64,000 bases of DNA. Origin: Crocinitomix algicola (GTDB lineage: Bacteria > Bacteroidota > Bacteroidia > Flavobacteriales_D > Crocinitomicaceae). The number at the start of each line of letters is the position of its first letter. The first letter of the stretch is position 1. The position numbers and the translations under genes were made by a program. The notes below the pieces were generated by a model. That model ran no database searches. It was not told the DNA's origin and was given only the letters and a program-made list of their open reading frames with translations. Location: the NCBI RefSeq assembly GCF_001661595.2, contig NZ_LYPF02000015.1, positions 1-64,000 on the forward strand, in the 5' to 3' direction. Shown here one piece after another: positions 46,620-50,843 of this stretch.

Positions 46620-47722
46620 TGAATATCGTTTTTGACGCAAGAGTTCACCTCAATTATTACAGTGGTATTAGTCGGTATATAATCTGCCTGCTAGAGGCCT
46701 ATGCTCGTTTATATCCAACAGATCGAATCTGTGTTTTACTGAACCCAACAATTGAGAAAACCAATAGCATATACAATGTTTTAGGAAGATTTCCTCAAAT
46801 TTCATTCACGCAAGTTAATGCCGGGCATATGGGACCAAAGAATTATACTAAAATGGGAAAGATAATAAAGCAGCTTAACCCTGACGTCTATCATTACCCC
46901 CATTTAGATGCCCCGATATATACCGGAAATGTTCCAGTTGTTGCAACCGTACACGACTCGAACTCTGATAAAAACATCAAGAAATTTGATGACAAATTTG
47001 GTTTAAAAACAGTCTATTTCAAATACGCATTACGATCAACTTTAAAAAAAGCAGACCATGTAATTTTTGTGTCAGATAGTATCAAATCATCGATTCTAAA
47101 CCAGTACAATATTCCTGAAGACGAGGACCGATTTACAAGAATACACAATGGATTTGAACCTGATTTCAACAAAATAAACTCAGAAGATGAACAGAGGTTC
47201 ATTCATACAAAAGGCATTCAAAAACCATACTTACTGTTTGTTGGCCAAATTAGAGAACATAAAAATATTTTTAGGGTGATAGAAGCTTTCAATCAGTTTC
47301 GAGCGGGTAATCCGAATTATCACCTCGTCATTGTAGGTCACAATTATCTCAATTTAAACCTGTCAACAGATGCTATTCACCATTTTGATCGCGTAAATAA
47401 CGACGAGCTTAAGATGCTCTATGCAAATTGTAAAGCCTTTGTTTTTCCATCGCTTTTTGAAGGATTTGGCTTTCCAATACTTGAAGCATTCTCTTTCGGA
47501 AAGCCTGTTATCACCTCTAATTATGGCGCCACAAAAGAGGTTTCTATGGGAGAAGCCATACTTGTAGATCCTTTTTCAGTTAATTCTATTCGAAACGGAA
47601 TGGTAACAGCAATTCAATCAGACAATAACGATGAGCAACGAAAAAGGGTTGCGGCATCTTATAGTTGGGAAACTTATGCACACAAGCTCAGAACCATTTA
47701 TTGTAAGGTGATCAAATCTTAA
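46619..47722 (+). CDS. Glycosyltransferase family 4 (mannosyltransferase-like)
   Basis: A 367-residue GT-B transferase. NIVFDARVHLNYYSGISRYI at the start is typical of the WbaZ/MtfB type of O-antigen mannosyltransferase. It also has KPYLLFVGQIREHKNI, HLVIVGHNYLNL, and FPSLFEGFGFPILEAFSFGK with the E-x7-E motif. It is the last forward gene before a convergent membrane-protein gene, which it overlaps by 4 bases, so no separate terminator fits between them. Confidence 0.92.
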   Translation: MNIVFDARVHLNYYSGISRYIICLLEAYARLYPTDRICVLLNPTIEKTNSIYNVLGRFPQISFTQVNAGHMGPKNYTKMGKIIKQLNPDVYHYPHLDAPIYTGNVPVVATVHDSNSDKNIKKFDDKFGLKTVYFKYALRSTLKKADHVIFVSDSIKSSILNQYNIPEDEDRFTRIHNGFEPDFNKINSEDEQRFIHTKGIQKPYLLFVGQIREHKNIFRVIEAFNQFRAGNPNYHLVIVGHNYLNLNLSTDAIHHFDRVNNDELKMLYANCKAFVFPSLFEGFGFPILEAFSFGKPVITSNYGATKEVSMGEAILVDPFSVNSIRNGMVTAIQSDNNDEQRKRVAASYSWETYAHKLRTIYCKVIKS

Positions 47723-49032
47723 TTTTTCTTTTCTGTCTTCAATTCGTTATACAAATAGATCAATACAAAAGTGAATAAGGAAAGCACCGGGATCTTGTAA
47801 CGCGCCAATGCTCCAAAATTATAGGAAGTAAATCCAACTACAAAACCAAAAATTAACGCGTACAGTGTAAACAAAATCAATATTGGCTCGGCGTTTAAAA
47901 TTCGAATTATTCGAAAGCGTAACTTCACGAGTAAATAAATGAACACCCCAAATAAGACAAGGCTTTCAAAGCTTGTAAACAATCCAACAATATTCGAAAT
48001 TTCCCAGGGATAAGGACGGAAAAAAGTAACATTTAAACTTGCCGGAATTTTTTGTATCACTCCTGTCAATGAGTATTCCACAACCCCTAAATCATAGGTT
48101 GAACCGCCAACATCGCTATGCCATGAATGAAATCCCTTTACTTTTCCTGTTATTGCGGAAGCAGAATAATTTGCATTTAAATCACGTAAAATAATTGGAC
48201 CTAAGTAAATGGCCACAGACGTTATGAAAATTAAGGCTAAACTCACAATTCTGCGTAAAAACACGGAACCAATTTTATCGCGAATGACACCATTTAACCC
48301 AAACAATAAAGCAGGTATAAAAGCAATTAATATATATGCTTTTAATTGGTAAACAATCCATCCCCAAAACAAAAGCGTTGCCCAAAGGAGAAAATGTTTC
48401 TGTTTCTTAAATAGTAAAAAATAACTTCCATAAAGGATAATATTTATTCCTGTGAGCGTCATTGTATCTTTCATTATTCCTCCCCCCCAAATTAAAACAG
48501 AGGGAATACAAAAAGCAGCTATAAATGCGAGATGCTTATACTTAGGAATTAAATCAATAAATACTCTAAACAATTTCCACGCTCCAAAAAAAGAAATGAA
48601 TGAAAGAAATAATGTTGTTACGAAATAATAATGAAACGAGAGGATTGAAAATGGCGATAATGTTTTAACCATAAACCACTCTTGTGCTCCTCTTGAATAT
48701 TGAATATCTTGGGAAAAGTAACTTAAATCTGCAGGTAAATTTGCGTTTTCACTAAACAGTAAACGGAAATAGGTTGCCGGTTCATCGAATAAGGTTTTTC
48801 CTAAAATTTTTGCTCCTTCATGGTATAAAAAAGTGTCCCCATACCCATAATAGAACTTGTAAATTATTGCAAAAACTACGCCACCAAAAACTTTTAATAA
48901 AAACGCCGGGATGAAAAATCCAAAATACGACTCAGTTTTTCCCTGCTTGTATATTAGCAATACCTGCAAAAGTATCGTAAAGTAAATTACCCAAATTCCT
49001 ATTTCTATAATTGAAAAACCTCCCATCTGCAT
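47719..49032 (-). CDS. Polytopic membrane protein, candidate glycan polymerase
   Basis: About 437 residues with 11-12 predicted helices and a large loop near residues 85-130 (YGYGDTFLYHEGAK ... QYSRGAQEWF). The GGGIMKDT motif near residue 180 and charged loops between helices recall membrane glycosyltransferases or the Wzy/EpsG polymerases, though I do not recognise the family. It is the only gene of the locus on the minus strand. Start codons are ambiguous: ATG 49032 or 49026 is preferred, while a TTG at 49077 gives a longer form. Confidence 0.7.
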   Translation of the reverse strand: MQMGGFSIIEIGIWVIYFTILLQVLLIYKQGKTESYFGFFIPAFLLKVFGGVVFAIIYKFYYGYGDTFLYHEGAKILGKTLFDEPATYFRLLFSENANLPADLSYFSQDIQYSRGAQEWFMVKTLSPFSILSFHYYFVTTLFLSFISFFGAWKLFRVFIDLIPKYKHLAFIAAFCIPSVLIWGGGIMKDTMTLTGINIILYGSYFLLFKKQKHFLLWATLLFWGWIVYQLKAYILIAFIPALLFGLNGVIRDKIGSVFLRRIVSLALIFITSVAIYLGPIILRDLNANYSASAITGKVKGFHSWHSDVGGSTYDLGVVEYSLTGVIQKIPASLNVTFFRPYPWEISNIVGLFTSFESLVLFGVFIYLLVKLRFRIIRILNAEPILILFTLYALIFGFVVGFTSYNFGALARYKIPVLSLFTFVLIYLYNELKTEKKN

Positions 49033-49126
49033 GCGCAAATTAATAACTTGAACAAATATAAGGTTTTGATTGAGCAAGGGAACGTTCTCGTTATCTTCAC
49101 CATTTTTTTCCTAAATTCACGCAAAA

Positions 49127-50104
49127 ATTGACAAGTTTATCGCAGGCGTATTTTGTATATCATTAGATTTTGAAAAGTATTGGGGAATACATGATATTTA
49201 CCCCATAAAAGCATGTGATTTTTTAAAAGATGTAGATGAAATTGCGCTTGCTACGATCGAATTGTTTGAACGATACGAAATGCACGTGACTTGGGCTACA
49301 GTGGGGTTATTAGGACATAATTCAATCGATGAGTTAATAAATTATGAAGACCGTAAAAAAATTCCATACAAGAATTCGGCTTACTCTCCTTTTCCGCTTA
49401 GTTACGAGAAATATTCAGTCTTTAATCCCGACAAACTTTTAGCACCAACACTTGTCCAACGCATTTTGAATAGCCCTCTTCAAGAATTAGGATCACACAC
49501 CTATAGCCATTTTTACACATTAGAAGAAGGCGTTACACTCGACGATTTTAAAATAGACCTAAAAAGAATGACTGATTTAGGTCTGCGTTTTAACACAAGG
49601 TTTGAAACCATCGTTTTCCCCAGAAACCAAGTTAATACAGCAACACTAGAAGTTTTAGGTAAAGAAGGGTATCTGGCCTATCGAGGGAATCAAGAAAATC
49701 GTTTTTGGAAAAATAGTCAATATGCGCAGGAATCAATTTTCAAAAAAACGCTTCGCGTTGTAGATGCATTCTTTCCAATTAGCCGAACAAAATCATATCA
49801 GTTGTCTGAATTAAAAACTCACCATGGTATGGTAAATATACCTGCCAATCGTTTTTTACGCCCACCTACTTCGCTAAAATGGTTAGAGCGTCGAAAAATA
49901 CGAAGGATAAAACGAGAAATGCATCAGGCAGCAAAAAAAGGCACAGTTTATCACCTTTGGTGGCATCCTCATAACTTTTGTGAGCACCCAAAACTTGCAC
50001 AGCAGCAATTAGAAGAAATTTTAGCCTACTACCATGTTCTGGCCAAACGGTATACTTTTTTAAGTTTAACTATGAAAGAAATAGCAGATCATGTCAAAAC
50101 CTAA
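49127..50104 (+). CDS. Polysaccharide deacetylase with no standard start codon
   Basis: NodB-type deacetylase acting on an N-acetyl sugar of a glycan. The open frame runs back to a stop at 49112 and encodes a strong motif 1 (ISLDFEKYWG, Asp14 and Glu16 counted from 49127), before the first TTG at 49262. Motif 2 is GSHTYSH, and WWHPHNF is near the end. No ATG, GTG or TTG lies in frame between the stop at 49112 and motif 1; the only near-start codons are ATT at 49115 and 49127 and ATC at 49139. Either ATT initiates or the start is lost. The next gene overlaps by 14 bases. Confidence 0.75.
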   Translation: MDKFIAGVFCISLDFEKYWGIHDIYPIKACDFLKDVDEIALATIELFERYEMHVTWATVGLLGHNSIDELINYEDRKKIPYKNSAYSPFPLSYEKYSVFNPDKLLAPTLVQRILNSPLQELGSHTYSHFYTLEEGVTLDDFKIDLKRMTDLGLRFNTRFETIVFPRNQVNTATLEVLGKEGYLAYRGNQENRFWKNSQYAQESIFKKTLRVVDAFFPISRTKSYQLSELKTHHGMVNIPANRFLRPPTSLKWLERRKIRRIKREMHQAAKKGTVYHLWWHPHNFCEHPKLAQQQLEEILAYYHVLAKRYTFLSLTMKEIADHVKT

Positions 50105-50843
50105 AGTAATCGTCCTCGCCACAAAAGGGTTATCGACCAATTTGCTCATTCAAAGACTGGAAGAAAGTGCAGAACTTTTAGCTGTCTTCATAGAAAAACC
50201 GGTCTCAAAAAAACAAATTATAAGTCGCAGAATAAAGAAAATAGGTTGGTTTAAAACGCTTGGACAACTCTCATTCTTAAGTCTAGTTTTACCCTTAATA
50301 CCGCAACGAAAAAAGCGAATTGCCTCTATTCTAAAAGCCAATAATTTAAAAGACAAATATAGTTTTCCTTACAAAAAGATTGAATCTGTTCATGATACCA
50401 ACCTTGTAAAGCAGATTAACGCGTTGAACCCTGATTTAATCGTAATTAATGGAACCCGAATTTTAAAAAAAGAATTCATAGAAAACGTTGCTGTAAAAAT
50501 TATAAATATTCATGTAGGTATAACGCCTAAATACAGAGGGATTCACGGAGGTTTTTGGGCTATTTATCACAAGGACCTTGAAAACTGCGGAGTTACGTTG
50601 CACTATGTAGATGCCGGAATTGACACAGGAAATATAATTGCACAGCGACGAATTTCACCCCGTAAATCTGACAACTTCAAAACCTACCCTATCTTACAGT
50701 ACATTAATGGACTAGACCTTTTACAAGAGCAAATGACTAAAATAATGGGCGGTGAAACTGACCCGTTTCCGGCTCCACCAAACACAAGTCAACTGCACTA
50801 TCACCCAACAATCTGGCAATACTTGTTTGGTCCTGCAAAATAA
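50091..50843 (+). CDS. Sugar N-formyltransferase-like enzyme
   Basis: A 250-residue formyltransferase-fold protein related to methionyl-tRNA and dTDP-4-amino-sugar formyltransferases. The core motif IINIHVGITPKYRGIHGG supplies Asn and His, and VTLHYVDAGIDTGNII supplies Asp, giving the expected N-H-D catalytic triad. Being fused into the glycan operon by a 14-base overlap with the deacetylase, it may formylate the amino group freed by deacetylation or an amino sugar precursor. tRNA formylation is less likely given the missing C-terminal domain. Confidence 0.82.
   Translation: MSKPKVIVLATKGLSTNLLIQRLEESAELLAVFIEKPVSKKQIISRRIKKIGWFKTLGQLSFLSLVLPLIPQRKKRIASILKANNLKDKYSFPYKKIESVHDTNLVKQINALNPDLIVINGTRILKKEFIENVAVKIINIHVGITPKYRGIHGGFWAIYHKDLENCGVTLHYVDAGIDTGNIIAQRRISPRKSDNFKTYPILQYINGLDLLQEQMTKIMGGETDPFPAPPNTSQLHYHPTIWQYLFGPAK

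Follow-up and report, generated by a model that had tools for sequence, protein, structure and literature searches.

A predicted deacetylase gene of Crocinitomix algicola with a probable, conserved ATC start codon

The window, the 64,000-nucleotide stretch of Crocinitomix algicola DNA analysed here (contig NZ_LYPF02000015.1, positions 1–64,000), carries at the end of a glycan locus a gene for a predicted deacetylase that has no ATG, GTG or TTG ahead of its first catalytic motif. We put a probability of about 0.9 on the reading that this gene is intact and starts at a non-canonical ATC (49139–49141, forward strand), where seven of nine family orthologues carry ATC or ATT and from which coding conservation begins. 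The odd start looks to have been kept by selection, since most family relatives begin with ATC or ATT at the same place, and not to reflect a sequencing error or a broken gene. It is also very likely that the ATC/ATT start is both real and weak, and weak expression of the deacetylase is plausible.

The deacetylase frame is open from 49115, after an in-frame TAA (49112–49114, forward strand), to a stop codon ending at 50104, and spans 329 codons. Between the upstream stop and the first catalytic motif, SLDFEKYWG (49160–49186, forward strand), no ATG, GTG or TTG lies in frame; the first is a TTG at 49262–49264, beyond the motif. The in-frame ATH codons preceding the motif are ATT at 49115, ATT at 49127 and ATC at 49139. 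ORF reading confirmed the preliminary description in both respects, that the open frame encodes the motif before the first standard start and that these three codons are the only candidates ahead of it. The frame has a single match in the window's genome.

The 321-residue product read from the ATC to the stop (49139–50104, forward strand) is predicted from its model and fold to be a CE4-type deacetylase, probably cytoplasmic. An AlphaFold2 model built with the ATC as Ile has a mean pLDDT of 94.2 and is confident from residue 1; its first strand (residues 4–11) holds motif 1. Across 28 aligned sequences the S, D, F, E, W and G of SLDFEKYWG are invariant, as are D10, H120 and H124, so that both a motif 1 Asp and a motif 2 HxxxH are present, the pair of features that we take to be the CE4/NodB signature. 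A TTG start at 49262 would, according to the model, delete strand β1 and the catalytic Asp10, and this codon therefore lies too far in to be the start. Foldseek assigned a NodB-like fold (E-value 6e-10 to 3qbu; TM 0.59–0.65), its best solved matches including the polysaccharide/peptidoglycan deacetylases 3qbu, 3rxz and 1z7a at 9–15% identity, and PF01522 (Polysacc_deac_1) scored 18.8 bits, below the gathering score of 23.1. The CE4/NodB deacetylases 3qbu (HP0310) and 3rxz have the same fold, N-terminal Asp motif and H-x-x-x-H, but identity to them is only 12–15%, and the window's gene adjoins a formyltransferase.

That formyltransferase gene (PF00551; 50091–50843, forward strand) overlaps the 3′ end of the deacetylase, begins at its own ATG (50091) and comes after the deacetylase in each of the nine orthologues, as well as in several distant genomes. 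The gene pair (49139–50843) suggests de-N-acetylation of a sugar followed by N-formylation, in which the formyltransferase could formylate the freed amine. On the other side lies a divergent membrane-protein-like gene (47719–49032, reverse strand), whose start is probably the ATG at 49032 or 49026. It gave no Pfam match, is presumably polymerase-like, and stands beside the deacetylase in nine of nine orthologues (in L009, as far as the locus reaches).

Orthologues were sought in nine genomes of the genus (six with a match) and then in 240 genomes of the family Crocinitomicaceae (14 with a match). The set used here comprises the window's gene (L001) and L002–L009, at least 46% identical to the window's protein, and forms one clade with a tree support of 100 (tree labels L012–L017 stand for L002–L007). 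L010, a relative of 35–36% identity with an ATG start, the fragment L011 and three weak matches were left out. Where a sequence has a record title, it mostly belongs to a metagenome-assembled genome. A usable canonical start is absent from seven of the nine orthologues, each of which has ATC (L001, L002, L003, L004, L007) or ATT (L005, L008), never ATA, at one aligned codon, seven before the Ser of SLDFE. The nearest canonical codon in L005, a TTG 59 codons ahead of the motif and in frame with it, would make the coding stretch cross the promoter box described below. In L006 an ATG lies two codons before the aligned place, which itself reads AAT; in L009 a TTG lies three codons before it, and the aligned codon is TCA. 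Crocinitomix catalasitica, the sole named isolate encountered in the clade, uses ATG, which indicates that a non-canonical start is unnecessary for deacetylase function. The preliminary description had considered that the protein of relatives might begin after the SLDFE motif; the opposite was found, as relatives begin before it.

Conservation at the amino-acid level marks the same codon. Mean pairwise identity among the nine orthologues is 0.03–0.11 at codons −20 to −8, 0.58 at codon −7 (the ATC/ATT), 0.31 at −6 and 1.00 at −5, −3, −2, −1 and 0, with third positions mostly free, and this jump from codon −7 onward argues that coding constraint begins at the ATC/ATT. ATC and ATT together account for 5.7% of upstream triplets; finding them at one codon in six of eight sequences has a P of ~9e-7, or 1.3e-5 when 15 positions are allowed for, values that ignore kinship and are too optimistic. 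Of 68 distinct outside relatives whose canonical start lies further up, a single one has Ile at the aligned codon. This rarity, together with the AAT and TCA of L006 and L009, indicates that Ile is not structurally needed there. For 80 distinct outside relatives that have a canonical start, its nearest occurrence is codon −7 in 13 cases and codon −8 in 27; with half of them (40/80) starting at these two codons, −7 is an ordinary start position of the family. As a control, rpsL, whose opening residues do not vary, has its ATG immediately ahead of them at every locus read in the family (30 of 30). Within the conserved stretch, the Ile codon of FCIS (codon −1, 49157–49159) is ATA in all nine orthologues; ATA makes up 946 of 4782 Ile codons, about a fifth, in the long ORFs sampled from the window's genome.

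The preliminary description had offered two readings, a true ATT start that keeps expression low and a start codon lost by mutation, which would silence the last two genes of the locus. The first is supported as regards a non-AUG start (in seven of nine orthologues), but the codon favoured here is the ATC at 49139 and not an ATT. ATT 49115 and ATT 49127 both precede the motif in frame, but initiation at either is improbable. Neither place is conserved: at codon −11 (ATT 49127) L002, L003 and L004 have stop codons, and the codons found opposite −15 (49115) are TTT, TCA, CAC, TAC, AGT, CCT and AAC. The second reading fares worse. Errors occur in metagenome-assembled and draft genomes, and one base change suffices to turn ATG into ATC, but a pseudogene or a start lost through mutation or sequencing error would require the identical loss in seven assemblies from three genera, always to ATC or ATT at one codon. 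The orthologue frames are full-length with all motifs, and the close pair L002/L003 differs synonymously at 75 codons and non-synonymously at 38. Purifying selection acts on the protein and the formyltransferase has an ATG of its own, so that silencing of the last two genes is very improbable.

Just as improbable is initiation in another frame followed by a shift, or reinitiation after a short upstream frame. The window's TTG at 49128 does open a short out-of-frame ORF, and in L008 an ATG-GGT-TAT-TGA overlaps the ATT, but a search of the nine orthologues for a conserved slippery site or a shared upstream ORF found neither. No out-of-frame start is common to them, and the six bases before the GC/GT of the FC codons vary (TTTTTT, TATTTT, CTTTTT, TCTTTT, TATTCT).

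The sequence TATCTTCA (49092–49099, forward strand), 39 nt before the ATC, is a −7-like promoter box, and a TTG at 49070–49072 ends 19 nt before it. A TAnnTT[TC][GA] box, which we take to resemble the Bacteroidota −7 promoter element, lies no more than 60 nt before the start column in all nine orthologues, in five of them as TAnnTTTG; the shuffled means are 1.9 and 0.5, respectively, and none of 2000 shuffles reached the observed numbers. The proximity of the box to the start column implies short leaders, within which out-of-frame starts are few and unshared. Bacteroidota do without Shine-Dalgarno sequences and prefer an A three and six bases before the start (PMC6847099; PMC9976891). Relative to the ATC/ATT column, A is found at −6 in eight of nine orthologues and at −3 in none. 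An A at −3 is the chief positive determinant in Bacteroidota, and its absence here fits weak initiation but could also mean little initiation.

The rarity of such starts was gauged in 581 ORFs of at least 90 codons, from 693,038 bases of the window's genome, which were surveyed by the distance from stop to first canonical start and judged by eye. The deacetylase and an isochorismate synthase were the only real-looking genes with coding sequence before the first canonical start, and N-terminus comparison in samples of five genomes (260 ORFs of the window's genome with a match) returned the same two. Other rows with long pre-start alignment were judged by eye to be antisense shadows, mostly of 70–131 codons with two of 148 and 190, and where the pre-start alignment was short, a canonical start lay nearby. 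A general decay of start codons across the genome was rejected on the ground that just two such genes were recognised in the 581 ORFs. A codon-usage scan for genes of this kind failed to pick up the deacetylase and is not sensitive enough to be relied on. A tRNA scan of the genome sample identified one tRNA-Met(CAU).

Further start-less relatives (L030, L035, L089, L048, L022 and L183) were not counted as support. In L030, a Campylobacterota deacetylase, four AACAAGC repeats upstream of 803 put an ATG out of frame, and the gene looks phase-variable from its sequence. The Bacilli deacetylases L035 and L089 have a CTG after AAAGGA, or an ATG one base off across a G-tract; L022 offers ATT codons only and L183 distant starts only. 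In a single genome, G012, the signal peptide of a lipoprotein-like gene seems to begin ATA AGA AAA (L264:7568–7570, forward strand).

The gene for IF3 itself, infC, was read in 37 family loci, 12 of which have no canonical start near the beginning. These belong to eight Crocinitomix genomes, all those in which infC was found, and to G012, G016, G027 and G033; G003 gave no infC match. In the window's genome (L114) the first canonical codon comes 39 codons in. The eight Crocinitomix genes share ATA GCN AT[TA], preceded in most by a GGGAGG-like run, and the spacing suggests that the ATA is probably the start, with initiation at the ATT/ATA two codons later being possible. A canonical infC start is missing from all six genomes that combine an ATC/ATT deacetylase with a readable infC. 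The two remaining genomes of the clade are G001, which pairs an ATG deacetylase with an infC lacking a canonical start, and G030, which uses TTG for both genes. Algoriphagus sediminis (L048) has ATC in the deacetylase, where its sisters have ATG, together with a TTG infC, which argues that an AUA infC is not a precondition.

The isochorismate synthase of the window's genome, which scores 228.8 bits with TIGR00543 (cut-off 224.75), has no canonical start for 99 codons; alignment with relatives (L206–L216) places its putative start at an ATA (L195:15337–15339, forward strand). The codon six before YRLP/YRFP reads ATA, ATT, ATC, ATC, ATC, ATG and ATC in seven genomes, and identity is 0.71 at this ATN codon versus 0.05–0.48 at the eight codons before it. 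The ATA of G000 overlaps the preceding gene's stop codon, the G008 gene is cut by a contig end, and the remaining readable genomes have a canonical ATG or GTG near the ATN place. A column holding all four ATN codons is a natural experiment on start-codon discrimination, and three unrelated genes with apparent AUH starts in one lineage would be of more interest than the deacetylase alone.

The weak start may serve low, IF3-sensitive expression or be tolerated drift, and the data do not separate the two. In the proposed mechanism, the initiator tRNA would pair with AUC/AUU through a third-base mismatch, and IF3 would disfavour the resulting initiation complexes, giving weak translation that would rise when IF3 activity is low. 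A weak start of this kind would keep the surface-glycan de-N-acetylase scarce and couple its amount to the condition of the initiation machinery. IF3 represses non-canonical starts in known systems (PMC5472188). IF3 control as the purpose of the ATC/ATT start is a tentative proposal, to which we give slightly less than even odds. Neutral drift, a substantial minority possibility, accepts the same start codon and disputes its purpose alone: with an AUA infC, weak IF3 discrimination would let ATG decay to ATH in lowly expressed genes, for no regulatory end. The mixture of all four ATN codons in isochorismate synthase and the irregular infC of the six ATC/ATT-deacetylase genomes speak for drift, but two such genes among 581 ORFs of 693 kb argue that decay is not general, and the deacetylase codon is ATC or ATT, never ATA. 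A broader proposal, doubtful at present, is a small AUH-start regulon in Crocinitomix and its allies, made up of infC (AUA), isochorismate synthase (AUA/AUC/AUU) and deacetylase (AUC/AUU), whose members would go up and down with IF3 activity; if true, the capacity for ribosome initiation would be coupled both to the supply of menaquinone and to the cell surface.

To our knowledge, conserved AUC/AUU starts outside infC are rarely documented. Our literature search found nothing on Crocinitomix together with start codons, and no title or abstract opening reporting a deacetylase with an ATC/ATT start. Gene callers limited to ATG, GTG and TTG will truncate these deacetylases so that the catalytic motif is lost, and a phylum that does without Shine-Dalgarno sequences is well suited to finding out what an AUH start needs in order to function. 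Among known systems, pcnB of Escherichia coli starts with AUU and is, like the deacetylase, a non-ribosomal gene with a rare start codon, but it encodes a different enzyme in a different phylum. Another parallel is infC, which starts with ATT in E. coli and, in Streptomyces, with ATC (PMC5472188). The infC of the window's genome likewise has no canonical start, but through infC IF3 controls itself, whereas the deacetylase has no known translation role and no well-spaced Shine-Dalgarno sequence. The same source describes Streptomyces sigR, whose GTC start (32 of 34 species; GTT in the other two) is repressed by IF3; the gene reacts to changes in IF3 dosage and to fidelity alleles, and public genomes misannotate it. 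Like the deacetylase, sigR lies outside translation and has a lineage-conserved non-canonical start; it differs in its GTC codon, strong ribosome-binding site, actinobacterial host and measured IF3 effect, whereas the deacetylase has ATC/ATT, no such site and a Bacteroidota host, and we infer its IF3 control. On comparative grounds, the conserved AUC/AUU start of the deacetylase is a well-supported further case beside infC, pcnB and sigR.
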